Below, piece by piece: positions 4,539 through 58,169 of a stretch of 64,000 bases of DNA. Under the pieces are notes generated by a model. That model saw only the letters and a list, made by a program, of their open reading frames with translations. It had not been told where the DNA came from and made no database searches. The stretch's first letter is position 1. The number at the start of each line of letters is the position of its first letter. The stretch lies in the NCBI RefSeq assembly GCF_014643175.1, contig NZ_BMJH01000001.1:372001-436000 (forward strand), given 5' to 3'. The DNA comes from Hoyosella rhizosphaerae. Its GTDB lineage: Bacteria; Actinomycetota; Actinomycetes; Mycobacteriales; Mycobacteriaceae. The translations under genes were made by a program, and so were the position numbers.

Positions 4539-5757
4539 ATAGCAGCCAGTCGATTCCGAATGTGTCGAGGCACCGCAATGCGAGTTCAATGGCGACGTGA
4601 TCGGATCGCCGACCTGGGTTGATCAGGTTGAATGCTTGTTCGACGCGATATCGAACAGTGTTTTTGTGCACGTGCAATTCTTCGGACGCGCGGGCTGGAC
4701 TCGCGCCGCACATGAGGTACGCCCGCAGTGTTTCGCGTAGGCGTTCAGCGGTTTCGGTGTTGTCGGCGAGCCCGCCTAGTGTGCGACGAATGAACCGACG
4801 GCACGCTGTGGCGTCGCGTCCCAACAAGTAGGCCGTTTCGACGTCAGCGAATGACGTCACTGCAATGCTTGGTCGTGACATGTTTGCCACGTGTTGTGCG
4901 GCGATTGCTTCGTTATGTGACTGCCGGAAACCGTCGCGGCCGCGTAGGCACGTGCCCAGTGCAACATGAACCCCGGGCTGGGTGCTGAGTTCGGGTAGTC
5001 GAGTGATCTCGGCCGGAGTGGAAATCCAAGTCCATAGTCCACGTGCTCCTGACGGGATGCTTAAGGATCCCGATCCGCGAATGGCGTGCGTGAGTCGCGC
5101 GGCGATCGCCTCCATGTTGGTGAAGGATCGTAGATCATCTTGGTCACTCCAGAGGACTACTGCTGTGTGCCACCGCCGGAGGGAATATTCCAATCGTTGT
5201 GACGCCGTGTCAGTGTCAATGGAGTCGCCAGCAAGAATTGCATGTGCCGTTTCTGCGCGACGGGCACTGGTGCCGCGGAGAAGTGCTTCGCGTTCTTGTG
5301 TGAAGGCACTGAGGAGCACGTCGGTCGATAGTTCTAGCCATTTCACAGCTGATTCCCACAACTGCACGAGAGCGGCCATTTTTTCTTCGGGATCGACAGG
5401 TGCGGATTGAACGATCTCGTTGAGAATGCTGATCGCGGTGGTGCGCCCCGAGCCGTACACGCGCAGCAGAACTTGGACATCCATGCCGCGTCGGGCAACG
5501 GTGCGCGCTAGCGCTACTGCCTCGGCGGGCGGCTGATACGCGGTGTCCTCGGTGGTGGCTGCGGCAATGAATGCCCTGACCTGCCCTCGGGTACTGGCGT
5601 CGAGATCGCGCCTAAACTCGTCGTCACTGCTCAACTCAGGTAATGAATCAATGATTGTGGTGTTTATTCGCTCGACGATGGCGGACATCGAGGCGGGTGT
5701 GAGCATCTGCGAGGTGATACGTCCGATCCAATCAGAGAGCTCATCGGCTTCCATCAC
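4519..5757 (-). CDS. PucR/CdaR-type helix-turn-helix transcriptional regulator
   Basis: The 412-residue protein has a helical N-terminal sensor-like half (about 1-160), a middle GGDEF-like/CdaR region and a C-terminal PucR HTH (about 350-405: [35 protein letters not shown] shows its usual pattern). Proteins of this family usually control neighbouring catabolic genes in response to a metabolite. It is divergent from the SDR/aldehyde dehydrogenase pair, with a 19-bp palindrome in the shared upstream region. GGAGGT precedes a GTG at 5757, and an ATG follows directly at 5754, so either may be used. Confidence 0.85.
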
Positions 5758-17086: not shown

Positions 17087-17144
17087 GTTGTGTGCACAAA
17101 CTCGCGGTGTGGCGACCGAAATCGTGCGAGTTTGTGCACACGAC
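17087..17144. repeat. 58-bp inverted-repeat element, copy A
   Basis: Left arm GTTGTGTGCACAAACTCGC (17087-17105) and the right arm at 17126-17144 are complementary at 18 of 19 positions around a 20-base loop. Its right end lies 66 bases before the NUDIX start. It has the same length and layout as the copies near 50.6, 51.6 and 52.9 kb. Confidence 0.9.
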
Positions 17145-44286: not shown

Positions 44287-45474
44287 GTGGCCAAAGCGCT
44301 AGTGGTAGGCGGGGGAATCGGCGGTCTAGCTACCGCGGTCGGACTCTATCGGTTGGGCTGGGACGTCAAAGTCTATGAAAAGTCGCAACACCTCGGCGAA
44401 GTCGGCGCTGGCCTCAGTCTGTTCCCCAATGCGCTGACCGCCCTTGAGTACCTCGGCGTGCTGTCCGCGATGCCTGTCGCGCACCGGACAATATCTGGGG
44501 GCATACGAACCGACACTGGGCGATGGCTTGCCCGCCAAGACATCTCAGACGATGGCCTTAACGGCAAGGAGTTCCGTGCCGTACACCGAGCGGAACTGCA
44601 CAATGCCTTGAGGGGTGCATTGCCTGAAGACGTTATCGTCACGGGCGCTCGAGTCCTGCACCTCAGCCCAATTGGTGGCGCAACCATCGAGATAGGCGGG
44701 AACACAACTCGCGTAGACAGAGTCGAAGAAACCGCCGATGTCATCATCGCCGCCGACGGCATCCACTCAACTGCGCGCCGAATCCTCTGGCCGATGGTCA
44801 GTCCGCCGGAGTACACCGGCATCACAGCGTGGCGCGGAATCTCAGCTACCCGGCCCGGACACGACTATCCCCTCACACAATCGTGGGGTCGAGGATCAGA
44901 ATTCGGGATCGTCCCACTCGCGGACGGCCGCACCTATTGGTACGCAGCCACTCACTCGGTACCAGGGATAACCTATCCGAACCATCGCACCGAAGTGCTC
45001 ACCCGGTTCGGAAGTTGGCACCAACCGATCCCAGACATCGTGACTGCCAGCGCGCCCGACGACATCGTGCATCACGACCTTTTTCACGTTCGTCAACAAC
45101 CGCAGTCGTTTGTGTCAGGGCGAGTTGTGCTGCTGGGCGATGCGGCCCACGCGATTCCGCCATTTTTAGGGCAAGGTGCCTGCCAGGCGCTCGAAGACGC
45201 GGCCACACTTGCCGCACTGCTTGGTCCGGCCGATACGTCTGCAGGTGCGTCAGTGGAGAGTGCTTTGCGGACGTATGACACCCTGCGGGTCCCGCGGGCG
45301 CGGCAGATTGCACGAGCCACCGCGCTGGCGGCGCAAATCGGCATTCGCGCCCGCGGTCCAATCACAAACCGTGCACGCAATGCCGCTGTGTGGCTCACCC
45401 CGCCAATCCTTGCCCAACGCGCGATGTCACGGATTGCACAATGGGAAGTACCGAGGGACGTACCAACGCGTTAG
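44287..45474 (+). CDS. FAD-dependent monooxygenase (salicylate hydroxylase / HpxO-like class A)
   Basis: The 395-residue protein has the FAD motif VVGGGIGGLATAVGL at the N-terminus, the DG motif region IIAADGIHSTARR near 155 and the GD motif VVLLGDAAHAIPPFLGQGACQALEDA near 280. These are class A flavoprotein hydroxylase hallmarks. The substrate is unknown. A 5-hydroxyisourate hydrolase gene lies 300 bases downstream, so a urate hydroxylase role (as HpxO) is worth testing. GTG 44287 follows AAAAGGAG by eight bases. Confidence 0.85.
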   Translation: MAKALVVGGGIGGLATAVGLYRLGWDVKVYEKSQHLGEVGAGLSLFPNALTALEYLGVLSAMPVAHRTISGGIRTDTGRWLARQDISDDGLNGKEFRAVHRAELHNALRGALPEDVIVTGARVLHLSPIGGATIEIGGNTTRVDRVEETADVIIAADGIHSTARRILWPMVSPPEYTGITAWRGISATRPGHDYPLTQSWGRGSEFGIVPLADGRTYWYAATHSVPGITYPNHRTEVLTRFGSWHQPIPDIVTASAPDDIVHHDLFHVRQQPQSFVSGRVVLLGDAAHAIPPFLGQGACQALEDAATLAALLGPADTSAGASVESALRTYDTLRVPRARQIARATALAAQIGIRARGPITNRARNAAVWLTPPILAQRAMSRIAQWEVPRDVPTR

Positions 45475-45704
45475 AACGGCCAGACGGTGCCCGGAGGTAG
45501 CAAGAACCGGAAGTCGCCCCACGGGGTGTAGCAGGCGATGGTCGTTGGCGGCGGCGGGTATATCAAAATCATCGGCAGCATCTCGCAGTACGGCAACGGC
45601 CGATTTGGTTGATGATCTGCTGCAGCAACACCTGGAACCGTAACTGCCAGCGCGGCCGCGACCATTCCCGTGACCGCCGCACGGCGTAAACTACTTCGCT
45701 TCAT
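45471..45704 (-). CDS. Small secreted protein with Cys pair (member 1)
   Basis: The 77-residue protein has a signal peptide (cleavage near GVAAA-DHQP) and a mature peptide of about 48 residues with YCEMLPMILIYPPPPTTIAC, then GDFRF and a C-terminal VWPF. AGGGGG precedes the ATG. It resembles the product of 48217..48453 in the YCE...C.T..GD..F pattern. It overlaps the 3' end of the convergent monooxygenase by four bases. Confidence 0.7.
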   Translation of the reverse strand: MKRSSLRRAAVTGMVAAALAVTVPGVAAADHQPNRPLPYCEMLPMILIYPPPPTTIACYTPWGDFRFLLPPGTVWPF

Positions 45705-45776
45705 GGAGCCCCCTGCGTGGTGTCGTCCGTTACTGTGTGAGTTTAATTCTAGTTCGTGACAGGAAGGTGACTACCG

Positions 45777-46100
45777 GTGGCGACGATCAGTACTCACGTA
45801 TTAGACACCACACAGGGGCTACCAGCTACAGGGGTCACTGTCGTTCTCCAAGCGCAGGACGGCGCCGAAATCGCCTCCGTTGTCACTGACGGCGACGGCC
45901 GCGTCAGCGACATAGCAGGCGATGATTTACCGACCGGCGTTTTCCGCCTCGTATTCGGAACGGGGCCGTACTTCTCCGCACGCGGGGTGCAGGCATTTAA
46001 CCCCGAAATTGTGGTGTCAGTGGTGCTTCCCGAACACAAGCACTACCACGTACCACTTCTCGTATCGCCGTACTCCTACACCACTTACCGAGGAAGCTGA
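45777..46100 (+). CDS. uraH: 5-hydroxyisourate hydrolase
   Basis: The 107-residue protein matches the transthyretin-like UraH family: N-terminal STHVLDTTQGLPA, the FGTGPYFSARG segment and the diagnostic C-terminal YRGS. It hydrolyses 5-hydroxyisourate to OHCU in urate breakdown. No uricase of the classical type, OHCU decarboxylase or allantoinase lies in the window. The nearby flavin monooxygenase is a candidate urate oxidiser. Confidence 0.93.
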   Translation: MATISTHVLDTTQGLPATGVTVVLQAQDGAEIASVVTDGDGRVSDIAGDDLPTGVFRLVFGTGPYFSARGVQAFNPEIVVSVVLPEHKHYHVPLLVSPYSYTTYRGS

Positions 46101-46103
46101 CCG

Positions 46104-46131
46104 CTGGCCCCGCCGCATAAGGCGGGACCAG
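46104..46131. terminator. Hairpin between uraH and htpG
   Basis: CTGGCCCCGCC (46104-46114) pairs at 10 of 11 positions with 46121-46131 around GCATAA. There is no T-run. It sits between two convergent stop codons and probably acts as a bidirectional terminator. Confidence 0.6.
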
Positions 46132-46144
46132 AACTCCAAGGCCG

Positions 46145-48088
46145 CTAGCTTTCGCCGCCGATGGTGTTCGCGAGTGTGTCCGCAAGCACCTTCGTGAACC
46201 CGGCTGGGTCCTTCAACTCGCCACCCTCAGCTAGTACCGCCATACCGTGCAGCAACTCGGCGGTCGCCTTCACATTATTGCCCTCCGCGTCGCGGGAGTG
46301 GAGAGTCCGCAGCGTCGTCACCAACGGGTGGTTGGGGTTGATTTCCAGAATCCGCTTGATGTGCGGTACCGGTTGACCGGAGGCACGGTACATCCGCTCC
46401 AGCGCAGGGGTGATGTCAAAGTCATCACCAACGAGGCAAGCTGGCGAGGTCGTCAAGCGTGACGACAACCGAACATCCTTGACGTCCTCAGTCAAGGTTT
46501 CCTTCATCCAGTTGAGAAGTTCAGCAAAATCTTTTTCGCGTTGTTCGCGGTCGGATTCGTCGGCCTCCTTCTCTTCCTCGGAGTCGAGATCAACGTCACC
46601 CTTGGCGATGGAGTGGAACTGCTTGCCGTCGAACTCCCGGACCGACTCCACCCACATCTCGTCGACAGGGTCCGTCAAGATCAGCACTTCCAACCCCTTG
46701 GCCTGGAACGCTTCCATGTGCGGTGAGTTTTCCACCAGCTGACGAGTTTCCCCCGTCATGTAGTAGATGCGGTCCTGGCCGTCCTTCATACGGTCGACGT
46801 ATTCGCGCAGTGTTGTCCACCGGTTCTGCTCGTCTTCCGTGTCTTCTTGTTTGCGCGTGGACACGAACGACGACACCTCAAGAAGTGTCTCGCGGTTGTC
46901 TACGTCAAACAGCAGCCCTTCTTTGAGGACTCGGCCGAATTCACCCCAGAACGTGCGGTACTTCTCGGGTTCATTCGCCATCATGTCCTTGATGGTGGAC
47001 AAGACCTTTTTGACGAGTCGCTTCTGAATCCGGGAGATTTGCCGGTTCTGCTGGAGGATCTCACGCGACACATTCAACGAGAGGTCCTGCGCATCAACAA
47101 CTCCCTTGACGAACCGAAGGTACTGCGGCATCAGTTCTTCGCAGTTGTCCATGATGAACACGCGTTTGACGTACAACTGAACACCGCGCTTGTGTTCGCG
47201 GGTGAACAAGTCATGCGGCGCATGCGTAGGCAGGAACAGCAGCGCCTGGTACTCGAAAGTGCCCTCCGCCTTCATGGAAATGACCTCAAGAGGCTCATCC
47301 CATGCGTGGCTGACGTGCTTGTAAAACTCCGCGTACTCCTCGTCCGTCACTTCACTCTTGGGGCGAGCCCACAGAGCCTTCTGCGAATTGAGGGTGACTG
47401 TTTCGGTAACGGTCTCCTCATCGACGGTAGATTCTTTGTCCATCCGGACTGGCCAGGAAATGAAGTCCGAATAGCGTTTGACGATCTCGCGAATTTTCCA
47501 CTCGGCTGTGTAGTCAAAGAGATGATCGTCGTCGTCACTGTCCTTCAAGTGCAACGTGATCGACGTACCCTGCGGAGCGTCCTCTACGTCTTCGATGGTG
47601 TAAGTGCCCGCGCCTTCGGACACCCAACGCGTTGCCGTCGTCTCGCCAACTTTCCGCGTCACCATGGTCACCTTGTCCGCAACCATGAATGTTGAATAAA
47701 ACCCAACACCGAACTGACCAATCAATTCGCTGGGGACTTCGCTGTTCTTTGCTTCAGCGAGAGCGCGGCGCAACTCGGCGGTGCCGGACTTGGCGAGTGT
47801 GCCAATCAAAGTGACCACTTCGTCCTTGGACATACCGATGCCGTTGTCACGCACGGTGAGAGTGCGTGCGTCCTTGTCCGGCGTGATCTCGATATGCAGA
47901 TCAGAGGTGTCAATGTCGAGATCTTTGTTGCGGTATGACTCCAGGCGCGCCTTGTCGAGTGCATCCGACGCATTCGAAATGAGTTCCCGAAGAAACGTAT
48001 CTTTGTTCGAGTAAACAGAGTGAATCAACAACTCGAGAAGTTGACGCGCCTCTGCCTGAAACTCACGTTCTTCAACCTGGGTGCTCAC
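46145..48088 (-). CDS. htpG: Chaperone HtpG (Hsp90)
   Basis: The 647-residue protein is full length, with the GHKL ATPase domain first (ELISNASDALDK, VRDNGIGMSKDE, IGQFGVGFYSTF). The middle domain (NRQISRIQKRL region) and C-terminal dimerisation domain follow. It starts at GTG 48088 with AAAGGA upstream. It is an ATP-dependent cytosolic chaperone, here as a single transcription unit. Confidence 0.97.
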   Translation of the reverse strand: MSTQVEEREFQAEARQLLELLIHSVYSNKDTFLRELISNASDALDKARLESYRNKDLDIDTSDLHIEITPDKDARTLTVRDNGIGMSKDEVVTLIGTLAKSGTAELRRALAEAKNSEVPSELIGQFGVGFYSTFMVADKVTMVTRKVGETTATRWVSEGAGTYTIEDVEDAPQGTSITLHLKDSDDDDHLFDYTAEWKIREIVKRYSDFISWPVRMDKESTVDEETVTETVTLNSQKALWARPKSEVTDEEYAEFYKHVSHAWDEPLEVISMKAEGTFEYQALLFLPTHAPHDLFTREHKRGVQLYVKRVFIMDNCEELMPQYLRFVKGVVDAQDLSLNVSREILQQNRQISRIQKRLVKKVLSTIKDMMANEPEKYRTFWGEFGRVLKEGLLFDVDNRETLLEVSSFVSTRKQEDTEDEQNRWTTLREYVDRMKDGQDRIYYMTGETRQLVENSPHMEAFQAKGLEVLILTDPVDEMWVESVREFDGKQFHSIAKGDVDLDSEEEKEADESDREQREKDFAELLNWMKETLTEDVKDVRLSSRLTTSPACLVGDDFDITPALERMYRASGQPVPHIKRILEINPNHPLVTTLRTLHSRDAEGNNVKATAELLHGMAVLAEGGELKDPAGFTKVLADTLANTIGGES

Positions 48089-48216
48089 GGACGAATCCTT
48101 TCCACACGTTATACGGGCAACAACGGCAAAATTTTACAATCTGTGCCCGACAAAAACGCACACCAACTTAACGCCGTGCGCGAAACGGTGGAATCACGGT
48201 TCGTACAAGTCAACCC

Positions 48217-48453
48217 TCACCAAGGGCGCGAGAACGTCAGATCACCAAAAAGCGTGTGGCAAATAATGATTGGACCGAAGAACGGCAAGGATGACTCCTC
48301 GCAGTACGGGATCAACACCATGTGCGCCGGTGTCGCGCCAGGAAGGTCGCGGGCGGGGGAGTTGGCCGAAGCCATCGCCGGTGCTGCCATTCCGAGACCC
48401 AAAGCTAGTGCTGATCCGGCGATTGCCGTCACGATTCGTCGTTGGATAGCCAT
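48217..48453 (-). CDS. Small secreted protein with Cys pair (member 2)
   Basis: The 78-residue protein has a signal peptide (cleavage near AMASA-NSPA) and a mature peptide with YCEESSLPFFGPIIIC, then GDLTF and a terminal RPW. It shares two Cys, the YCE start, a GD(F/L)xF motif and a terminal aromatic tail with the protein at 45471..45704. GAGGAGA precedes the ATG. It may be a secreted peptide family of this lineage. Confidence 0.7.
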   Translation of the reverse strand: MAIQRRIVTAIAGSALALGLGMAAPAMASANSPARDLPGATPAHMVLIPYCEESSLPFFGPIIICHTLFGDLTFSRPW

Positions 48454-48650
48454 CAGATTCTCCTCGCGCCGTGGTGTCGTACCAAGATGATCGTTCCACA
48501 GCCCACGCAGTTGCGGAAGAGGGTTTCGCTACCTTCATTTTGTGTCCCGTTAACTGAGGTGAAGTACCCCGCGGAACCGCAGGTAAACGGCGTGATCTGC
48601 GACAAGGGTAAGAACTCCGCGGCGCGTCAGAAAAACACGCCGTATTGGTC

Positions 48651-48678
48651 TTGTTTTTTGATGCGGAGATTGCATACT
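48651..48678 (+). promoter_or_regulatory. Promoter for a probably leaderless GNAT gene
   Basis: TTGTTT (48651-48656) and CATACT (48673-48678) are 16 bases apart. The ATG at 48685 lies six bases beyond the -10 element, where transcription would start. No ribosome site stands in front of it. Confidence 0.5.
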
Positions 48679-48684
48679 AATCGC

Positions 48685-49476
48685 ATGATTTCTCCGTTCG
48701 TGCCGGTGGCTGATCCACGGCCGGTGGACACTCCGTGGCCCGACATGGTCTGGCCATTGCCGAGTGGCACACACCTACACGGGGCAGTGGTTCAACTGTC
48801 CCCGCTACGTCCCGACGTAGATGCTCCGGCCCTGTTTGCGGCGCTCGACCATCAACACGTGTGGAACTTCATGCCCATCGCACGACCACAAACTGCCAAC
48901 GACCTGGAGGCCCTACTCCGTGCCCGCGCCGAGCTCCCGAACTGGCATCAATGGGTTGTTCGCACTGTGCAGGAATACCGGGGTGTACTCGCCGGGTCAG
49001 TCGTCGGAATGACCTCATTCGTCAACGCTTCCGTCTCCGACGCAAGGGTCGAGATCGGCGGAACGCTATACGCCCCCGAAGTGTGGGGTAGCGCGGTGAA
49101 CCCGGAAACGAAGCTATTGCTGTTGTCGACCGCATTCGACCACCTCAATGTTGGCCGCGTCGAACTGCGCACCGATACGCGCAACACCCGCTCACAGCTT
49201 GCGATCACTCGACTCGGCGCGATGTACGAAGGCACTCAGCGGCGGTACGCCCGCAGGCCTGATGGCACGGTACGCGACACAGTGCTGTTCTCCATCGTCG
49301 CCGAAGACTGGCCAACAGTCCGGCACAACCTGGTGAACCGCGTTTCGGCATTTGACAGCCAGGCAGGCGGGGCGCTTGAGGTACGCCACCGTCCACATCC
49401 TGATCCATCTCAAACCTCCAGCAACATCACCTCCAGTACAGCCGAGGTGATTCCCCAATCGCAGACCTGCGGCTAA
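48685..49476 (+). CDS. GNAT-family N-acetyltransferase (RimJ/RimL type)
   Basis: The 263-residue protein has the RimJ/RimL-like layout: a substrate segment (WNFMPIARPQTANDLEALL pattern) near 65-90, VGMTSFVNASVSDARVEIGGT, then ALL-STAFDHLNVGRVELRTDTRNTRSQLAITRLGA in the acetyl-CoA region. It probably acetylates a small amine or a protein N-terminus. The last 50 residues are a low-complexity tail. ATG 48685 seems to be leaderless. Confidence 0.8.
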   Translation: MISPFVPVADPRPVDTPWPDMVWPLPSGTHLHGAVVQLSPLRPDVDAPALFAALDHQHVWNFMPIARPQTANDLEALLRARAELPNWHQWVVRTVQEYRGVLAGSVVGMTSFVNASVSDARVEIGGTLYAPEVWGSAVNPETKLLLLSTAFDHLNVGRVELRTDTRNTRSQLAITRLGAMYEGTQRRYARRPDGTVRDTVLFSIVAEDWPTVRHNLVNRVSAFDSQAGGALEVRHRPHPDPSQTSSNITSSTAEVIPQSQTCG

Positions 49477-49669
49477 CCGGCTGGGCGGGTGCACGCGCCA
49501 TCCGCCCTGCTCACTGTCATGCCCGGGGCTTCCGGTAGGTAAGTCAGAGTTGTGTCCCCTTGTTCAAACGCGGGGTCTGCCGCGGGTTCAGGTTGCCATA
49601 ACAGCAAATAGTGTTGCCGTATTGGCTAGGGCTCCCTCACAATCGAGAGATATTCGATATGGGGAGGAA

Positions 49670-50623
49670 ATGATGGGAAATCAGGTGCTCGACCGCTACG
49701 ACGTAGTGGTCATCGGTGGAGGTGCCGCTGGGCTCAATGGGGCACTCATGTTGGGACGAGCGCGCCGCTCAGTCGTCGTGATCGACGCGGGCGAACCACG
49801 AAACGCACCCGCGGACGGCATCCATGGCCTACTCGGGCGCGAAGGAATGCCGCCCAGCGACCTGCTCGCCCTGGGGCGCGCTGAAGCGGAACAGTACGGC
49901 GCCGACATTGTTTCGGCAACAGTCACCAGGGTTCAACGCGATAACGAGGATTTTGTTGTCGAACTGTCGGACACCAGGTCGGTCCGAGCCAGCCGAATTC
50001 TGCTAACCACAGGATTGACCGACGAGCTTCCCGATATACCGGGCCTGCGGCAACGATGGGGCCGCGACGTTATTCACTGCCCGTACTGCCACGGCTGGGA
50101 AGTGCGCGATCAAGCAATCGGGGTATTGGCAACCAGTCCGATGACAGTGCACCAAGCATTGATGTTCCGCCAGCTCAGCGACGACGTTGTCGTCTTCCTC
50201 AACGGGACGCAACTCCCTGCTGAACAGGCCGAGCAGCTCGCGGCGCGCGGGATCACTACGGTGCCAGACCTCGTTGCCGGGGTAGAGGTTGTTGACGACG
50301 CGATCTCGGGCGTGCGACTCCACGACGGCACAGTCATCAAACGCCAGGTAGTAGTCGTCGCGACGCGCATGGTGGCGCGGGCGAATTTCCTCGACGCGTT
50401 GGGGCTGCAACCTCAAGAACACCCGTCAGGCATGGGCGAGTTCATTCCGACGGATGCGATGGGCCGAACCGAGGTCCCCGATGTGTGGGCTGCGGGAAAC
50501 GTCACCGATCTGATGGCGCAAGTGGGCGCATCGGCCGCGGCAGGGGCGGCGGCAGCAGCGCAGATCAACGCTGACCTCGTTCACTCGGACACGCTCGCAG
50601 CTGTTGCGCAGTACAGGCGCTAG
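49670..50623 (+). CDS. Thioredoxin-reductase-like FAD/NAD(P) oxidoreductase
   Basis: The 317-residue protein has FAD-binding VVVIGGGAAGLNGALMLGRARR and the redox region CPYCHGWEVRDQ. The usual TrxB CAxC becomes C-P-Y-C in this group. The NADPH motif is weaker than usual (GVLATSPM), and the C-terminal FAD segment DVWAAGNVTDLMAQVG is present. It is a class of TrxB-like flavoproteins common in actinomycetes, with unknown partner. GGGGAGG lies before ATG 49670. A 58-bp inverted repeat follows. Confidence 0.85.
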   Translation: MMGNQVLDRYDVVVIGGGAAGLNGALMLGRARRSVVVIDAGEPRNAPADGIHGLLGREGMPPSDLLALGRAEAEQYGADIVSATVTRVQRDNEDFVVELSDTRSVRASRILLTTGLTDELPDIPGLRQRWGRDVIHCPYCHGWEVRDQAIGVLATSPMTVHQALMFRQLSDDVVVFLNGTQLPAEQAEQLAARGITTVPDLVAGVEVVDDAISGVRLHDGTVIKRQVVVVATRMVARANFLDALGLQPQEHPSGMGEFIPTDAMGRTEVPDVWAAGNVTDLMAQVGASAAAGAAAAAQINADLVHSDTLAAVAQYRR

Positions 50624-50632
50624 AACCCGTCG

Positions 50633-50690
50633 GTCGTGTGCACAAACTCGCGGTTAAGCACCCGTAATTGTGCGAGTTTGCGCACACAAC
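50633..50690. repeat. 58-bp inverted-repeat element, copy B
   Basis: Left arm GTCGTGTGCACAAACTCGC (50633-50651) and the right arm at 50672-50690 pair at 17 of 19 positions around a 20-base loop. It lies ten bases after the flavoprotein stop and 46 bases before the AbiEi/DUF559 gene. Confidence 0.9.
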
Positions 50691-50736
50691 TGAGCGCACG
50701 GAATCCCTAGCGGCGTCGCATGCGTCAAAACGGGGC

Positions 50737-51594
50737 ATGACACATTTCGACCCGCGGACACCATTCAAGTCGGCCTGTCGTTCCATCCCGCACTACGCCG
50801 CGGGGCGCAAGTACCGGCGGCTGTTTGACGGTGTGTATGCCGACAAGTCGGCCCCGGTGACGCAGGAGTTGAAAGCCCGTGCGGCTTGGTTGTGGGCCGA
50901 CGGCAACTGTGTCCTGTCAGGTGTTTCCGCCGCGGCGGTATGGCGGGTGAAGTGGCTACCAGAAGAGGCACCACCCGAGATCGTGGTCAATAAGGTTGTG
51001 CGAGTTAAGGGCCTCATCGCGCATAGAGACTTGGTGGTGCCGCAGGATGTTGCCGTGCGCTCCGGAATGCGGGTGACCACTCCCGCGCGCACGGCGTTTG
51101 ATCTAGCACGCCGACTCAGTGAGGCCGAAGCAATTCCGTTGGTTGACGCGCTATACCAGGCCACGAATCTGTCCCCAGCTAGCTTGCGCACGTGGGCTGA
51201 GTCGCGGCCGGGATACAAGGGAATACGCAGGTTGCGCCGGGTAATCGAACTGTCGGATGCCGGTGCAGAGTCACCGCGCGAAACTCACCTTCGACTTCTC
51301 ATTATCGACGCTGCACTGCCTCGCCCGGTGTCACAGTATGTGGTTCTCGATCACCGAGGCGGATTCATCGGCCGTGCGGATCTGGCTTGGCCGCATTGGA
51401 AGGTGGCCCTCGAATACGAAGGTGCGCACCATTTCGACGACCCGGTGCAGGCGCGGCGTGACGCGTTGCGGGCGAACGCGTATATGCAGGCTGGGTGGCT
51501 GGTGATCCGTGTAATCAGTGGGATGGTTCGGCAGCCAGACATGTTGCTGAACCAGATCACTAGCACGCTCCGTGCCGCCGGCGCTCCAATCTGA
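50737..51594 (+). CDS. AbiEi-like winged-helix protein with C-terminal DUF559/Vsr-like nuclease domain
   Basis: The 285-residue protein has an N-terminal region like AbiEi-type antitoxin/HTH proteins (YRRLFDGVYADKSAP, then ARAAWLWADGNCVLSGVSAAAVW). The C-terminal domain reads GFIGRADLAWPHWKVALEYEGAHHF, followed by RRDALRANAYMQAGWLVIRV, the DUF559/Vsr-like PD-(D/E)xK pattern with Asp, Glu and a following His. ATG 50737 gives the usual N-terminus, as upstream readings run into repeat copy B. It sits exactly between two copies of a 58-bp palindromic element. No adjacent AbiEii-type toxin is present. Confidence 0.75.
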   Translation: MTHFDPRTPFKSACRSIPHYAAGRKYRRLFDGVYADKSAPVTQELKARAAWLWADGNCVLSGVSAAAVWRVKWLPEEAPPEIVVNKVVRVKGLIAHRDLVVPQDVAVRSGMRVTTPARTAFDLARRLSEAEAIPLVDALYQATNLSPASLRTWAESRPGYKGIRRLRRVIELSDAGAESPRETHLRLLIIDAALPRPVSQYVVLDHRGGFIGRADLAWPHWKVALEYEGAHHFDDPVQARRDALRANAYMQAGWLVIRVISGMVRQPDMLLNQITSTLRAAGAPI

Positions 51595-51599
51595 TAGCG

Positions 51600-51657
51600 G
51601 TTGTGTGCACAAACTCGCGGTGTATTCGCCGCAATTCCGCGAGTTTGTGCACACAAC
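51600..51657. repeat. 58-bp inverted-repeat element, copy C (perfect)
   Basis: The arms at 51600-51618 and 51639-51657 are perfectly complementary over 19 bases. Complementarity continues outward and inward to 23 bases (51598-51620 with 51637-51659). It starts six bases after the nuclease-like gene and precedes the CHAP gene. Confidence 0.92.
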
Positions 51658-51689
51658 CGACGAACCCATATCCCGCTAGACTCGCGAGA

Positions 51690-52289
51690 GTGCGGACGAC
51701 GCCGAAAGACCAAGCAAACAGAGCCTCCCGCCGCATCCCCGCTCTGGCGGCATCGCTCGTCGTCATCGTAGGGCTGGCCTGGGCTGTGGTTGCCTATTTC
51801 GACTTGTGGAACATGGTTGGCCCCCGCGAATTCCCCGCCGTTGAGACTGCCGAGCTTGACGACCGGCAGGCCGCAGTGATCGAGGTGCTGCGCCGAGAAT
51901 TCGCGGAAAATCCGCCGGGAGAAAAATATTCGGAAGGCTCAGACGAAGCATGGTGCGCCAACTTCGTCAGCTGGGTGATGCGGGAAGCCGAAATGCCTCT
52001 GGAGAATCCGAATTCCGGCTGGTGGCGAATACCCGGTGTGTACACGCTCGAGGAGTACTACCGCGCTGACGGACGATTCGAATCGCGTGAGTCAGGGTAC
52101 GAGCCGAAAGTTGGCGACGTTATCCTGTACGCACCGAGGAGCAAGTTCACCCAACACACGAGCATCGTTGTGCGCAACGACGATGGCGTTTTGACGACTG
52201 TCGGCGGCAACGAGTTCCTTCGCGGCGAAGTTGCTGCACGAAACGTCCGTACAAGCCACTCAGGAATTGTTGGTTATGGGGTGCTGTGA
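51690..52289 (+). CDS. Membrane-anchored CHAP-domain peptidase (peptidoglycan hydrolase-like)
   Basis: The 199-residue protein has an N-terminal membrane helix (about 20-42) and a CHAP domain with catalytic Cys in DEAWCANFVSWVM and His in FTQHTSIVV. Such domains cut peptidoglycan cross-bridges or amides. GTG 51690 is favoured: TAGACT at 51677-51682 is a likely -10 element, so transcription would begin almost at the start codon. Upstream readings would translate the 58-bp repeat. Confidence 0.8.
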   Translation: MRTTPKDQANRASRRIPALAASLVVIVGLAWAVVAYFDLWNMVGPREFPAVETAELDDRQAAVIEVLRREFAENPPGEKYSEGSDEAWCANFVSWVMREAEMPLENPNSGWWRIPGVYTLEEYYRADGRFESRESGYEPKVGDVILYAPRSKFTQHTSIVVRNDDGVLTTVGGNEFLRGEVAARNVRTSHSGIVGYGVL

Positions 52290-52413
52290 CGAGGCAAAGT
52301 CTGACGCCCTAGGTGTAAACGGCCGTCCTTACGGGTAACCAGATGGAGTAAGGCGCGATGCGCAGCGACGACAAGCGGACCGTGCAACATCATGCGAGCG
52401 TGAGGAACCATTA

Positions 52414-52839
52414 ATGGACACCACAACGATCGTTACCATCGTCATTATTGTTGTTGCGGTGCTCGCAATCGCTGCGATCATCGGCGTGGCTTTGCGAAGT
52501 CGAACCGATCGACGGCATCGCAGGGCGGAAGAACTACGACACAAGGCCGTGGCCCACCAACACGAGGTCGCTGAGCAAGAAGCTGAGGCGGAAGCCGCTG
52601 CCGCTCGGGCACGCGAGACAAAAGCGCGCGCTGAAGCGCAGGCCGCGGAGGCCGAAATGATGCAGCATCGCGCGACCGAGCAGCGCACTGAAGCGACCAC
52701 CGAACGCGCGAAATTGAATAAGGAATTTGAGCGCGCCGCTGAACTCGATCCAGATTCGGCGCGTAACCGGCCGGGTTCGCCTAACACGCCACGCTCAACA
52801 CACACCCGTGATGAAGGACCGCCGCGCGGAAAAAAGTGA
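52414..52839 (+). CDS. Membrane-anchored coiled-coil protein
   Basis: The 141-residue protein has one N-terminal membrane helix (about 5-28), then a long charged helix rich in Ala, Glu and Arg (about 32-115, probable coiled coil), and a disordered C-terminus. GTGAGGAA precedes the ATG. Similar actinobacterial proteins of this layout are unnamed. Function unknown. Confidence 0.7.
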   Translation: MDTTTIVTIVIIVVAVLAIAAIIGVALRSRTDRRHRRAEELRHKAVAHQHEVAEQEAEAEAAAARARETKARAEAQAAEAEMMQHRATEQRTEATTERAKLNKEFERAAELDPDSARNRPGSPNTPRSTHTRDEGPPRGKK

Positions 52840-52860
52840 GCCGCGCAAGCAAGCTCCACA

Positions 52861-52918
52861 GAAGTGTGCACAAACTAGCAATATTTATGGTGCTGAGCCG
52901 CTAGTTTGTGCACACAAC
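52861..52918. repeat. 58-bp inverted-repeat element, copy D (covarying arms)
   Basis: The arms at 52861-52879 and 52900-52918 again enclose a 20-base loop. The CTCGC end of the other copies is CTAGC here, and the partner arm changes from GCGAG to GCTAG, so pairing is kept. Only the two outer positions mismatch. The element overlaps the last codons of the MFS gene on the minus strand. Confidence 0.88.
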
Positions 52919-54108
52919 CGGGAGCGAGCGGACGAGCCCATCACTAGTGCAAGAGAAACCAAAACGTATGGCACAGCGAGCGCCGCGAAAGCTACCGAGT
53001 GGGACGAGACGGTAAAGACCCCGAGGTAGCTCAGTAGCACCACGAGTGTCATCACTTCGGCGCCGACGCCTGCGGCGGATGTCACTGTTGCCCGCGATTC
53101 CCCGCTGATTCGGTGCTGCAACCGTGCATCTGCGGCGACGCCAGCCGCCTGCAACGCCCCGAATGCAACGCCGAGCGCGATCCACCCGGCAGGCCCACCG
53201 GCGAGGGCTCCCACCGCCATCAAGGACGCGGCGACTGCTAGTAGTGCGCTGAACTGTCTCGACGATAGTCTCGCCGCAGGTCCGGAGAACAGGCCACCAC
53301 CGGCAACGCCCACCCACACGGTAAGCACAACCCAGGGGATCGCTTCGGTGTTTACTCCATGCTCGGATGCTAGCAGTGGCACATATTCTTCGAGGTTCTC
53401 CCAAATGGCCGGGATGATTGCGGCCAAGGCGACAGCGGCGAGTACGGCTTTGCTTCGAAAGACCTCTCGCATCCCAGCGCGCATTACGGTCCTAACCTCG
53501 TGGTCATCACGAGGCGCGGGTAACCGTAGTTCGGGCAACAGTAGGCCGATTGCGGAGCACACTACACACGCGAGCACGCTGCCTACTCCCACGGCCACGT
53601 AACCCCCGAGGGTCATCACTGGGATGGCAACAATGGTGGACAGTCCTACTGCGCAGACCTCATAGGTTCGGGCGATGCCCATGACGGTTGCGTATTGCGG
53701 GGCTGCACCCCGGTGGTCTAGTTCGGTGAAAACGAGCGCTTCGAGTGCACCGGAGGAGAGGGTTCCCCCGGCGCCCCAGAGGATAAAGCCGAGGGCGAAC
53801 GCCCAATAGTGCGGGAACAGTAGCCACAGGGAGAATGCGGTTCCTGCGAATAAGGGGGCTGCCGCGAGGAGGTAACGGCGGGGCACGATGTCTGCTAGCA
53901 CTCCCGAGGGGACCTCTAGGAGTACTGACGCGAGTGACCAGATCGCGAAGAGCGACGTAATCTGCGCGACGGATAAACCCGAGTCGGCGAAAAAGATCGC
54001 ATAAAACGGGTAGAGCAGGACGAACTCAGAGCTCAGCGAGTAGGCGTATAGCGGCCACGAAAGCCTGCGGACTTCCCTTGAGCGGGACTTGATCGGCATG
54101 GTGAACAT
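52885..54108 (-). CDS. MFS transporter
   Basis: The 407-residue protein has about twelve membrane helices and a loop motif DIVPRRYLLAAAP. The middle loop is at about 190-215 (PAPRDDHEV). It resembles MFS proteins with a LLYPFYAIFFADSGLS start, which are common in actinomycetes with unknown substrate. The last residues (SRLCAQTSGSAP) are encoded by repeat copy D, so the inserted element probably replaced the original C-terminus. The start may also be ATG 54099. Confidence 0.82.
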   Translation of the reverse strand: MFTMPIKSRSREVRRLSWPLYAYSLSSEFVLLYPFYAIFFADSGLSVAQITSLFAIWSLASVLLEVPSGVLADIVPRRYLLAAAPLFAGTAFSLWLLFPHYWAFALGFILWGAGGTLSSGALEALVFTELDHRGAAPQYATVMGIARTYEVCAVGLSTIVAIPVMTLGGYVAVGVGSVLACVVCSAIGLLLPELRLPAPRDDHEVRTVMRAGMREVFRSKAVLAAVALAAIIPAIWENLEEYVPLLASEHGVNTEAIPWVVLTVWVGVAGGGLFSGPAARLSSRQFSALLAVAASLMAVGALAGGPAGWIALGVAFGALQAAGVAADARLQHRISGESRATVTSAAGVGAEVMTLVVLLSYLGVFTVSSHSVAFAALAVPYVLVSLALVMGSSARSRLCAQTSGSAP

Positions 54109-54228
54109 GGAGGTCTTCTGGTTGTGCGGACAAGGGGTTCGGGGATGCCGATCCGGTGGGGGACCCCGAACTTGTGCCGCGCAACGACCTCTACGCAGGT
54201 ATCAATGTCGCCAATGCATACTTCAAAG

Positions 54229-54266
54229 TTTAGCGGCCCCTCCCGGAAACGGAAGAGGCCGCTAAA
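54229..54266. terminator. Terminator downstream of the fabH-type gene
   Basis: TTTAGCGGCC (54229-54238) pairs with GGCCGCTAAA (54257-54266), and inner CCG/CGG pairing extends the stem. It follows the stop codon at 54278 on the minus strand. Confidence 0.75.
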
Positions 54267-54277
54267 TGTTGAGGGGA

Positions 54278-55336
54278 CTAGAAGCTTGTTTCTGTCGGTG
54301 CGGGTGGTAGGCGCACGACCTGGCCCGCGTAGCTGAGTCCAGCGCCGAAGCCCAACAGGAGTGCGATTTGCCCACTCTTCGCCTTGCCGGTGACCAGCAT
54401 TTCTTCAATCGCCAAGGGAATTGAGGCGGCGGAAGTATTGCCAGTGTTCTCAATGTCGTTGGCGACGGGGACGTGGTCGGCGAGTCCGAGGTTCTTCTTC
54501 ATTAGTTCGTTGATTCGCGCGTTGGCCTGGTGGGGGACGAACACCTCAATGTCGTCGATGGAGACACCTGATTCGGTCAACACGTTGGAGAGCGCCTTCG
54601 GCAAGGTGATGGCAGCCCACCGGAACACGCGTGGCCCTTCCATGGTCACGACCATGCGGCCGACTTCTTCATCGTCCGGGTCCTTGCCTTGGAGTTCTTG
54701 GGCGCGGTCCATGTAGGCAGGCACGTCAAAGTTCTGGGTGATGGCGTCGGAGTTTTCACCGTCGCTGCCCCACACAGTGGGGGAGATGCCATTTTCTTCG
54801 CTTGGGCCGATTATTACGGCACCGGCGCCGTCACCGAAGATGAATGCGGTGCTGCGGTCGTGTGGGTCCAACACGACCGACATGGTTTCTACGCCGATGA
54901 GGAGTACGTATTCGGCGGCACCTGCGCGAATCAGGTCGGAGGCTACTGCTAGGCCGTACCCGAAGCCGCCGCAACCCGAGTGCAGATCGAATGCGGGGAT
55001 GCCGTTGATGCCGAGGTCGTAGGCAACTGCGGGGGCGCCGTGCGGGATAACTGTGCGCCAGCTACTTGTGGCGAGCAGGATGAGGCCGATTTTTGACTTG
55101 TCGATTCCGCTGTTGCGGATTGCCCGATCAGCTGCTGCTACAGCCATGCTGCGGGCGGACTCGTCGCCACTAATCCATCGGCGGTTGCGGATGCCGCTGC
55201 GTTCGAAGATCCACTCGTCTGACGAGTCGAGAACCTCGCACACTTCGTCGTTGCTGACCAGTCGTTGGGGTCGGTACGCACCGATGCCCAGCATCGATAC
55301 GTTGGGTGTCCCAGTCTTGGACGCGATTGTCACCAT
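54278..55336 (-). CDS. Beta-ketoacyl-ACP synthase III-like enzyme (FabH family)
   Basis: The 352-residue protein has the FabH catalytic Cys122 in HSGCGGFGYGL, His in VFVPHQANARI and Asn in ENTGNTSAAS. These enzymes condense acyl-CoA with malonyl-ACP to start fatty acid or secondary-metabolite synthesis. It lies alone and not beside other fab genes. The starter-unit preference cannot be told. Confidence 0.92.
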   Translation of the reverse strand: MVTIASKTGTPNVSMLGIGAYRPQRLVSNDEVCEVLDSSDEWIFERSGIRNRRWISGDESARSMAVAAADRAIRNSGIDKSKIGLILLATSSWRTVIPHGAPAVAYDLGINGIPAFDLHSGCGGFGYGLAVASDLIRAGAAEYVLLIGVETMSVVLDPHDRSTAFIFGDGAGAVIIGPSEENGISPTVWGSDGENSDAITQNFDVPAYMDRAQELQGKDPDDEEVGRMVVTMEGPRVFRWAAITLPKALSNVLTESGVSIDDIEVFVPHQANARINELMKKNLGLADHVPVANDIENTGNTSAASIPLAIEEMLVTGKAKSGQIALLLGFGAGLSYAGQVVRLPPAPTETSF

Positions 55337-55468
55337 TGGATCCGCTCCTTATTGCCTTGTGGTCAGCACTCTTACCTTAACGCGGCATCTCGCGCATTGA
55401 AGCCGTCATGACAGGCTCGTTTGTGCTATTCAGGGCAAATACCAGCCACATCGCGCATCGCTTTTTAG

Positions 55469-55966
55469 TTAATGTGAGATAACCGACATCGCGGTCTCGG
55501 CGTTGGATTTGCGGGCATGGGGTTGAAGGCGGACGTAAACCTGGCGGCGAACATGGGCAACGACGTCACCTGATTCGTCGGTGATGTCGCACTCGAACCA
55601 GGTGAGGGTGCGATCGCCGGAGGCGGCGCGGGCGCGAATGTCTTCCACCGTCGAGGCGGGCACGTGCATAACGGCGGTGAGTTTGCCTCGCCCTCGTTTG
55701 ACGAAATCTATTTCCGCTGAAGCGTCCCATACGTAGTAGTCCTCGCCGAGTTGTGGCATGAGGAGCAGTACGTAGAAGGGGTCGGTCATGGATGACAGTG
55801 ATCCGCCGAAGGCGGTACCGAGGGCGTTGCGGGTCAGTGAGTTCACGCGGAGGGTTACTTCCGCTCGCGACCAGTCGTCGGCGATGTGGCGAACGCTAAT
55901 GCCAGCGCCGAGAAATGGCGGCCAGGCGCGCATGCCGAGTTTGAGGGTTCGTGGTGTGAATTTCAT
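55469..55966 (-). CDS. DUF4442/YiiD-type thioesterase-fold protein
   Basis: The 165-residue protein has a hot-dog-fold pattern with NALGTAFGGSLSSMTDPFYVLLLM and KRGRGKLTAVMHVP. This is typical of DUF4442 proteins related to PaaI thioesterases. AAGGAGA precedes ATG 55966. It may hydrolyse acyl-CoA. It shares orientation with the FabH-type gene 130 bases downstream. Confidence 0.8.
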   Translation of the reverse strand: MKFTPRTLKLGMRAWPPFLGAGISVRHIADDWSRAEVTLRVNSLTRNALGTAFGGSLSSMTDPFYVLLLMPQLGEDYYVWDASAEIDFVKRGRGKLTAVMHVPASTVEDIRARAASGDRTLTWFECDITDESGDVVAHVRRQVYVRLQPHARKSNAETAMSVISH

Positions 55967-56086
55967 GGTTCTCCTTTGAATCATTTCCTCACACAATATC
56001 CACTATGACGGAATGCATAAAACTAAGTGTGGCCCGACTAACATGACCCGCGATGAGTTTTCACTCCTGCGCGAGTCAGTACCGGC

Positions 56087-56473
56087 ATGAGTATTCCCAC
56101 AATCAATAGCGCCCTACTGTCGAGCACCAACCCCGAACGGTTGCGTGACTTTTACGCCGCCTCGTTTGGTATTGCACCGGAAGCCACCCCCGACGGCGGC
56201 TACCACGTCATAACCTTCGGTGGCTTCTATCTGATGTTCGACAGCCGCGACGACGTCAGCGATACCGCCCCCGAACCAGGCCGCATCATCTTCAACATCG
56301 AGGTCGAAAACGCGCCGACAATCGCACAACGGCTCACCGACAATGGCGCCCGATGGCTGTCCCCGCTCGAAAACCGCGAAGGCAGTTGGTTCGGCACCGC
56401 CATCGACCCCGATGGAAACTACGTGCAAATCATTGAACCAAGCGATGAAATGCGCGCCATGATGAGCGAATAG
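56087..56473 (+). CDS. VOC-family (glyoxalase/bleomycin resistance-like) protein
   Basis: The 128-residue protein has paired beta-alpha-beta modules: NPERLRDFYAASFGIAPEA in the first and the C-terminal WFGTAIDPDGNYVQIIEP that is diagnostic for VOC proteins. Members bind a metal and act on varied substrates. It is convergent with the glutamate-synthase-like gene, four bases apart. Confidence 0.85.
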   Translation: MSIPTINSALLSSTNPERLRDFYAASFGIAPEATPDGGYHVITFGGFYLMFDSRDDVSDTAPEPGRIIFNIEVENAPTIAQRLTDNGARWLSPLENREGSWFGTAIDPDGNYVQIIEPSDEMRAMMSE

Positions 56474-56477
56474 GAAA

Positions 56478-58169
56478 TTACAGTGACACGCCGCCGAAAT
56501 TCACGCCGGACAACTCCGACATATCCCGTTTCCATGTAACGAGGTCGTTGTGGCTGAACCCTGACAGGCTGTCGTGTCCGCATGCGCGCGCCATGATCTT
56601 CATCAAGTCCACGGAGGAATCGAAGAATCGTCCGAGACGCTCTGCCGCTTCATCGACAGGGAGGCGTTTGCGCAGTTTTTCGTCCTGGGTGGCGATTCCG
56701 ACTGGACACTTGTTGGTGTGGCAGGCCCGCATACCGAGGCACCCGATTGCCTGCATGGCCGAGTTGGAGACAGCCACGACATCGGCACCAAGGGCGAGGG
56801 CTTTGACAAAATCGGCGGGCACGCGAAGTCCGCCGGTGATGATCAAAGTGACGTCACGAGCAGCGGAAGTGTCGAGGTGGCGGCGTGCCCGAGCGAGTGC
56901 GGGGATGGTTGGGACTGAGATGTTGTCGCGGAACAATGTGGGTGCGGCACCAGTTCCGCCGCCGCGGCCGTCGAGAATGATGTAGTCCACGCCGATTGCA
57001 AGAGCTGCGTCAATGTCGCGTTCGATGTGCTGGGCGGACAGTTTGACGCCGATGGGGATTCCGCCGGTGTTTTCACGCACTTCGTCGGCGAATTCGCGAA
57101 AGTCTGCGGGTGTGGTCATGTTGAGGAACCGAGATGGCGATACAGCGGATTCGCCGGGGGTGAGGCCACGAACTTCAGCGATCCTGCCGCGCACTTTGTT
57201 GCCGGGCAGGTGCCCTCCGGTGCCGGTCTTTGCGGCTTGTCCAAGCTTGAAGTGGAACGCTCGGCTAGCGGCAACGATATCCATGGAGAAACCGAACTGG
57301 GCGGATGCGAGTTCGTAGAAGTAGCGGCTGTTGGAGGCCTGTTCTTCAGGCAATACGCCGCCTTCGCCGGAACAGATACCTGTACCTGCGAGTTCGGCGC
57401 CTCGCGCGAGCGCAATCTTGGACTCTTCTGACAATGCGCCGTAACTCATGTCAGACACCATCAGTGGGATCGCGAGCTCGAGGGGACGTTTCGCTGCGGG
57501 GCCAACCGTGACGCTGGTGGTGACCGGGTCGTCGTCGAGCAGCGGTGGGGTGGCTAGTTGGGCGGTGATGATCTGGAGGTCGTCCCAGCTTGGCAGTTGC
57601 GACCGGGGGACACCCATGGCCTCCATCTGGCCGTGGTGGCCAGTGCGGGAGAGGCCTCGAGATGCCAAGTGCGAGATTGTGCCGACGTGCGGTTCGTCGG
57701 GTGTTCCTTTGAAGTCGGCGTAAAGACCTTGATACGAGTCGCGTGAGTACTTTTGAGGGTTCGCGCACTCCCACTGGGTGATCTCATCTTCGTCCACCCA
57801 TACTGCGCCGTCCTCGACCCAGGAGTGGAATTTATGAAGGTCGGCACCCTTGAAGTGGATATTCTTGCCAGTGCGTGAGTCATAGGTGGATCCGTGCAGG
57901 CTGCAGGACAGGCGATCACCGTGGACTTTGCCGTCGGAAAGCAGTGCGCCGCGGTGCTGGCAGCGTCCGTACATGACTGTTGCCTCGTCAGATTCAGGGT
58001 GACGTAACACGATGAGATCAACATTGGCGACGAGCGCGTATCCGGGCTGCGATGGTGTGAGTTCGTCGATGAGAGCGACTTTGTTGGCTCGCACGTGGGG
58101 GGTTCCTTCGGCTAGCGGGATCGGTCCGGGGCCCCGGCGGGCACCGGTGCGATTGGGGCGTGCTGACAT
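56478..58169 (-). CDS. Rieske domain fused to glutamate-synthase-like FMN/3Fe-4S domain
   Basis: The 563-residue protein has an N-terminal Rieske domain (Cys70, His72, Cys89, His92). A GltB-type FMN-binding barrel follows (VSDMSYGALSEESKIALARGAELAGTG pattern, then GHLPGNKV, ILDGRGGGTGAAPT), with the 3Fe-4S motif C-x5-C-x4-C in GCLGMRACHTNKCPVG. It lacks the glutaminase domain of GltB. The reaction is unknown; the pairing of a Rieske cluster with this flavin site suggests an electron-input module. ATG 58169 is preferred to an upstream TTG at 58202. Confidence 0.85.
   Translation of the reverse strand: MSARPNRTGARRGPGPIPLAEGTPHVRANKVALIDELTPSQPGYALVANVDLIVLRHPESDEATVMYGRCQHRGALLSDGKVHGDRLSCSLHGSTYDSRTGKNIHFKGADLHKFHSWVEDGAVWVDEDEITQWECANPQKYSRDSYQGLYADFKGTPDEPHVGTISHLASRGLSRTGHHGQMEAMGVPRSQLPSWDDLQIITAQLATPPLLDDDPVTTSVTVGPAAKRPLELAIPLMVSDMSYGALSEESKIALARGAELAGTGICSGEGGVLPEEQASNSRYFYELASAQFGFSMDIVAASRAFHFKLGQAAKTGTGGHLPGNKVRGRIAEVRGLTPGESAVSPSRFLNMTTPADFREFADEVRENTGGIPIGVKLSAQHIERDIDAALAIGVDYIILDGRGGGTGAAPTLFRDNISVPTIPALARARRHLDTSAARDVTLIITGGLRVPADFVKALALGADVVAVSNSAMQAIGCLGMRACHTNKCPVGIATQDEKLRKRLPVDEAAERLGRFFDSSVDLMKIMARACGHDSLSGFSHNDLVTWKRDMSELSGVNFGGVSL

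Follow-up and report, generated by a model that had tools for sequence, protein, structure and literature searches.

Actinobacterial AbiEi-like nuclease genes flanked by largely gene-specific palindromes: a possible counterpart of REPIN-RAYT systems with an unrelated enzyme

A nuclease gene in the window (the whole stretch of 64,000 nucleotides that was analysed) lies between two copies of a palindrome, and related genes were found in the same arrangement, each largely with a palindrome of its own. Two-sided flanking, palindromes that are largely gene-specific, dispersed copies, concerted lineage-specific change, occasional presence or absence at orthologous sites and conserved catalytic residues are shown. 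The best explanation, held with moderate confidence in the absence of binding or cutting data, is that nuclease and palindrome form a 'duo' that works like REPIN-RAYT with an unrelated enzyme of the Vsr/EDxHD type. As part of this explanation, the nuclease gene would be vertically inherited and held between two copies of its cognate palindrome of ~50–65 bp. Spreading of the palindrome by the nuclease is inferred and was not shown.

Features of the window were located by direct reading and by inverted- and direct-repeat searches and are listed in Table 1. The MFS assignment of the gene at copy D was made by Pfam; the ORF preceding copy A was judged MarR-like by eye only, without a family search. 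A first-pass annotation had placed the gene at 50737..51594 between two copies of a palindrome, and this held on direct reading and in the repeat search. It had described a 58-bp element 46 bases before the start, where a 62-bp span ending 44 bp before the ATG was found here, and had put the downstream copy six bases past the stop, where the actual distance is 3 bp. Its claim that copy C is a perfect copy of copy B failed: identity between them is 81% over 63 nt, with common arms and a different core of ~20 nt. Its suggestion of a REP/RAYT-like arrangement with a winged-helix and Vsr-like nuclease was supported, the winged helix resting on family knowledge.

Table 1. Coordinates of the nuclease gene and of the palindrome copies in the window
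Feature	Position	Strand	Basis or remark
Nuclease gene, 285 aa	50737..51594	+	ATG 50737, TGA 51592-51594 (direct reading)
Palindrome copy B, 5' of nuclease gene	50631..50692	+	inverted- and direct-repeat search; RNA-parameter fold z -5.18
Palindrome copy C, directly 3' of nuclease stop	51598..51659	+	perfectly complementary arms of 23 nt; fold z -9.44
Palindrome copy D, dispersed, between convergent genes	52859..52920	+	overlaps stop of MFS gene 52885-54108(-); repeat search
Palindrome copy A, dispersed	about 17087..17144	+	~20 bp past stop of 152-codon ORF

The palindrome matches in the window are not due to chance: GTGCACAAACTNGC was matched 10 times at ≤2 mismatches against a shuffle mean of 2.19, and 10 matches were reached in 0/100 shuffles. 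Hairpin z-scores of the four copies ranged from -4.75 to -9.44. In an alignment of 13 copies (nine from the genome containing the window, G000, two from G051 and two from locus L067), the arms GTGTGCACAAACT-GC and their complement were nearly invariant, and the core of ~20 nt was variable in sequence and almost constant in length. An Rfam scan of positions 45000-57000 of the window gave no match, and an RNA-family reading of the palindrome region was dropped for want of one.

Genome-wide, G000 contained 16 exact half-sites of the window palindrome against 0 for a reversed-pattern control; these resolved into 9 sites, all nine with an inverted repeat. The sole close paralogue in G000 (G000:C1:180219, 60% identical to the window nuclease) sits between two copies of another palindrome, GCATGTGCAGAAGAATGCA...TGCATTTCTCTGCAC(A/G)TGC, for which 41 half-site matches were counted when ≤2 mismatches were allowed (4 for the control), with an inverted repeat at 20/20 examined G000 sites. 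Dispersed palindromes in three related genomes amounted to 8–11 half-sites per strand with 0 control matches. The gene context of the dispersed G000 sites was taken from simple ORF calls only; on such calls, convergent neighbouring ORFs were recorded at 23/57 hand-chosen sites. At unrelated genes the window palindrome occurred mostly as single dispersed copies, with one other pair in G000, around a GNAT gene. At that place (G000:C1:693822-695028, L017 ~4318-5530) two inverted copies enclose the GNAT acetyltransferase gene together with a small ORF that has no Pfam match, a composite-like unit of ~1.2 kb without a nuclease.

Generality was assessed in the family and then at phylum scale. Homologues at E ≤1e-10 were present in 235/301 family genomes and 27/31 genera, some genomes carrying eight or more (no more than eight per genome were scored in the search). 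Eighty loci of up to 18.9 kb each were picked by protein-match rank and not by palindrome; five matches near contig ends were omitted, and L172 and L173 were taken from a genus search. Controls were 889 ORFs from the same stretches, defined by simple longest-ORF calls. The flanks shared a substring of at least 14 nt at 46/80 nuclease loci against 4/889 control ORFs (Fisher p = 6e-52) and of at least 12 nt at 55/80 against 26/889; strong palindromes (score ≥12) stood on both sides at 33/80 against 3/889 (Fisher p = 8e-36). The 80 loci are not fully independent, which qualifies both p-values. Fewer than 11 nt were common to the flanks at 23/80 loci, and at 7/80 no palindrome scoring ≥9 was found on either side; inverted repeats of that score on at least one flank were frequent even in controls (313/889). 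Where palindromes stood on both sides (52 loci, the window and L023 included), upstream and downstream copies matched (score ≥14) in 45/52, compared with 4.1% of between-locus comparisons. Of these 45 matched loci, 33 had the copies in direct and 8 in inverted orientation, with 4 ties. The upstream copy mostly lay ~30–165 bp before the gene start and the downstream copy abutted the stop codon. In the genomes of both L120 and L125 a separate long palindrome, GGCCGCGCGGGCACGTGCCCGCGCGGCC-like, was seen further upstream of the gene.

At phylum scale, homologues at E ≤1e-15 were found in 121/396 genomes and 86/237 genera. The distant set comprised 20 loci (L248-L267), three of them without a frame and one, L249, from the same family. 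At least 13 nt were common to the flanks in 6/17 (L249, L251, L262, L263, L264, L265), without a control, and the pattern is therefore weaker at distant loci; palindromes on both sides were found at L251, L263 and L265. The nuclease was matched by only seven plasmid records and, weakly, by two phage records, and a search of a viral collection confirmed no nuclease relative, so that plasmid or phage cargo was dropped as an explanation.

The palindromes are largely gene-specific. Among 60 loci with a usable palindrome, sharing (score ≥14) was seen in 1–6% of pairs at 35–60% protein identity, in 48% at 60–70% and in 73–77% above 70%, and only 1/23 same-genome paralogue pairs had a common palindrome. 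In tree order, neighbouring proteins tended to have common palindromes, and the arms drifted gradually; no region of the protein tracked the palindrome beyond overall identity in a regional correlation. The intact window palindrome (full form, no mismatch) occurred in G000 and G051 only among the 301 family genomes, and each encodes a close nuclease relative, that of G051 being 78% identical over residues 129-285 and apparently truncated N-terminally. In G067, whose relative is 76% identical, imperfect copies lie beside that gene and the strict form is lacking; the intact form was also absent from the same-genus genomes G001-G003, whose best homologues are 57–62% identical. The first-pass annotation had proposed a check for enrichment of the palindrome near such genes, with equal distribution next to unrelated genes as a refuting outcome. 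This sequence check was run: palindrome pairs were strongly enriched around the nuclease family, and the intact window palindrome was seen only where a close nuclease relative is encoded. The palindrome is also found next to unrelated genes, yet not equally.

The window protein matched the PADLOC AbiEi model (E = 3.7e-13) and, in Pfam, AbiEi_1 (2.3e-5) and DUF559 (0.0031, below the Pfam cut-off for this member). Its nearest named relative, from Hoyosella altamirensis DSM 45258, is 76% identical. In an alignment of 57 homologues, REase_MTES_1575 (PF18741) was matched by 55/57, DUF559 (PF04480) by 51/57 and AbiEi_1 by 12/57. The AbiEi-like portion makes up the N-terminal and middle parts of the protein, and in the window protein we take it to be a winged helix (wHTH) from family knowledge; the nuclease domain is C-terminal. 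Residue E182 was conserved in 57/57 homologues, D215 in 57/57, H232 in 56/57, D242 in 56/57 and E226 in 54/57. The order E-D-(E)-H-D is that of EDxHD nucleases, an assignment that is our own and is inferred from sequence alone. A profile search of the PDB returned the endonuclease-like protein 3hrl (E = 0.0012) and, weakly, the 'mobile intron protein' 3r3p (E = 0.89), which we take to be I-Bth0305I. dN/dS was 0.07–0.30 in 14 orthologue pairs (16 were listed, two having no value since one member was dropped). The family is thus under purifying selection with its catalytic residues conserved; catalysis itself is inferred. An AlphaFold model from a two-sequence alignment was poor (pLDDT 39.5), and the fold is backed by sequence profiles only. 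The anti-phage ProA model was matched weakly by 7/57 homologues (best E 0.001). The neighbours of the nuclease gene in the window encode Pyr_redox_2 and CHAP proteins. Residues 139-174 resembled a weak TAL-effector-repeat-like helical unit in the profile search (window 50737-51591); this likeness was set aside, being significant only on summing many weak repeats, with none of the single repeats shown being significant.

Change over time was followed in orthologous loci. In G031 and G111, whose orthologous loci are ~85% identical, compensated arm changes were present in both flanks. The arm variant AG was counted by hand in 14/22 half-sites of G031 against 0/23 of G111, and in 10/18 against 0/19 (p 1.3e-4) when the nuclease-flanking copies were left out; in these counts the two arms of a site are not independent, and some 2-mismatch matches may be fortuitous. 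In a set of 28 locus pairs with overlapping membership, within-locus similarity exceeded orthologous similarity in 12, the reverse held in 5 and 11 were mixed. Above 90% identity there were five pairs, four orthologous and one mixed; below 80% there were eleven, ten concerted and one mixed. From this change of pattern between close and divergent pairs it follows that palindrome turnover is real but slow. In G134 and G165, which are 94–96% identical at these loci, most listed dispersed sites were at matching positions (coordinates read by eye). An empty-site search of this pair, with five queries for four sites (one queried from both genomes), found the palindrome in both genomes at three alignable sites, one aligned on the right flank only; for G134:C1:1004072 the stretches examined gave no match.

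The corresponding search of G031 and G111 took in eleven dispersed sites, with palindromes removed from the queries, and gave clean empty counterparts at 2/11. At G111:C12:248644 an insert of 117 bp with CTAG at both ends is absent in G031, the palindrome also being missing there in G053 and G146; at G111:C34:111535 an insert between direct repeats of ~20 bp is absent in G031. In place of the palindrome at G031:1113392, G111 has ~12 nt of unrelated sequence. Where G111 has its copy at G111:C45:88305, G031 has the palindrome of another nuclease family, which scored 50/64 to the L108 palindrome against at most 32 in 1000 shuffles. The palindrome at G031:471843 is common to both genomes in a degraded form, the site at G031:1062823 is complex, G111 having two palindromes there, and the other five sites were unresolved. 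Insertion footprints were thus not uniform (CTAG at both ends, a direct repeat of ~20 bp, or replaced filler). In 30 aligned 18-kb locus pairs there were 28 clean indels of 35–110 bp, and no non-flanking one was clear enough as a palindromic insertion. The nuclease gene itself was found in syntenic loci of related genomes, and no empty site of the gene was established. Two further observations concern dispersed copies. Three in G111 (L273, L279 and L283; the latter two recognized by pattern, L273 by eye) have an extra tail of ~40 bp, TGAGTCATTA...CGCANTGGTC, adjoining the palindrome, a hint of a larger repeat unit. At L287 (G111:C23:355982) and L294 (G031:C1:2767591) the palindrome core is interrupted by similar sequence, 91% identical over 1378 bp from the interruption, as would be expected if an insertion sequence used these palindromes as targets in the way ISPpu9 uses REPs.

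The closest known likeness is to REP/REPIN-RAYT systems (TnpA-REP, REPtrons), in which a single-copy enzyme gene stands alongside its own palindrome family, a genome has several such enzyme/palindrome pairs, the palindromes are dispersed and extragenic, and inheritance is mostly vertical (PMC3116915, PMC8266576). Cognate flanking, extragenic dispersal and a separate palindrome for each paralogue are found here, and a Y1 HUH transposase beside the palindromes is not: the enzyme is an AbiEi-like protein with an EDxHD/PD-(D/E)XK-like nuclease in place of a Y1 HUH (IS200/IS605-like) transposase. The palindromes also differ, being ~50–65 bp with arms of ~20 nt and an asymmetric core, as does the copy number, which is roughly 10–20 sites here and runs to hundreds in REPs. 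In GTAG/CGTC REPs and TIRtrons, too, an enzyme gene is flanked by dispersed palindromes or terminal repeats, but their enzymes are tyrosine transposases (PMC3733652); Actinobacteria, Mycobacterium, Rhodococcus and Corynebacterium do not appear in the main text of that paper. Unlike in a classical IS or transposon, the enzyme gene does not appear to be multicopy or mobile, the nearest paralogue being 60% identical and the loci syntenic among relatives. EDxHD homing endonucleases such as I-Bth0305I have the same conserved residue order E, D, x, H, D by our assignment; the sequence link is weak only, the gene here is bracketed by palindromes, and no intron or intein was seen at the nuclease gene. 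The protein resembles AbiEi antitoxins (type IV toxin-antitoxin) in its N-terminal and middle parts, but has a C-terminal nuclease domain and, judged by the window neighbours only, no AbiEi-AbiEii bicistron; the nuclease domain is like DUF559/Vsr-like nucleases (PDB 3hrl; PF18741). A DUF559-type nuclease tied to dispersed palindromes was not found in the open-licence PMC literature searched.

If the duo does work in the manner of REPIN-RAYT, a nuclease dimer would bind the two palindrome arms, or the hairpin, and cleave the palindrome, its vicinity or a target; the palindrome would be copied as the break is repaired. Existing palindromes would be homogenized by such copying, and new ones would occasionally be seeded, frequently at the 3' ends of genes. 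The spreading unit would be the palindromes, the gene itself apparently not jumping, and the palindromes beside the gene would keep it within its own repeat population. I-Bth0305I has been described to dimerize on a target of nearly 60 bp (PMC3943268), which fits the palindrome length. Recognition and mobilization of the repeats by the protein, which the first-pass annotation had also suggested, remain inference without biochemistry.

Several other explanations were weighed against this one. The palindromes might be operators and terminators, the AbiEi-like part repressing its own gene through the upstream copy, the downstream copy serving as terminator, the dispersed copies forming a regulon and the nuclease domain having another role, e.g. 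defence. AbiEi is known to autoregulate negatively through inverted repeats (PMC7319586), the downstream copy abuts the stop codon, and convergent ORFs neighbour 23/57 of the hand-chosen sites on simple ORF calls. Against this, the upstream copy matches the downstream one and mostly in direct orientation (33/8/4), dispersed copies vary in presence or absence, another nuclease family's palindrome stands at one such place, and an AbiEii match was lacking among the four neighbouring products searched in the window; we regard this reading as unlikely. Still less credible is a role in protection or addiction, in which palindromes would buffer the toxicity of a selfish or defence nuclease, or shield its own locus, as decoy or self-marker, and loss of the pair would therefore be selected against. 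Conserved catalytic residues, purifying selection and syntenic loci are compatible with it, as are the weak ProA matches (7/57) and the PADLOC AbiEi matches, but by itself it leaves unexplained the dispersed copies at unrelated genes and the lineage-specific change, and no antitoxin- or methylase-like Pfam match was found among the four window neighbours.

Equally improbable in our view is that the palindromes are MITEs or REPs moved by another, unlinked transposase with the nuclease gene as a bracketed passenger. The extra conserved tail of ~40 bp on some G111 copies and the insert with CTAG at both ends, as in a larger MITE, speak for it; against it, gene-specific palindromes at many paralogues and genera would demand one transposase each, and a search of eight genomes for Y1 transposase (PF01797), the only type searched, found none in 7/8, G000 included, and one in G051. 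A RAYT acting in trans was rejected on the same search. Chance bracketing by ordinary hairpin terminators can be all but excluded: inverted repeats on at least one flank are indeed common at control ORFs (313/889), but the flank sharing (46/80 against 4/889, p = 6e-52, with loci not fully independent) rejects it for the group as a whole.

A bolder form of the REPIN-RAYT-like reading, on which taken as a whole we would not lean either way, is that these genes represent an undescribed, phylum-wide class in Actinobacteria, in which wHTH-EDxHD nucleases each recognize, homogenize and spread their own palindrome; that this would proceed by break-induced copying without a transposase, new palindrome specificities evolving with the protein; and that with this class the REPIN-RAYT way of life would have arisen independently a second time. 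A standing puzzle in REPIN-RAYT is that immobile, single-copy transposase-like genes persist with a private population of short palindromes. If the reading is true, the same architecture with another enzyme class suggests two origins and points to a common benefit or mechanism. The 45 matched enzyme/palindrome pairs form a natural set from which the DNA specificity of large-target nucleases might be decoded. On this reading, too, a widespread group for which DUF559, restriction-like and AbiEi models are so far the only matches would gain a function, and the dispersed palindromes of actinobacterial genomes would be accounted for.
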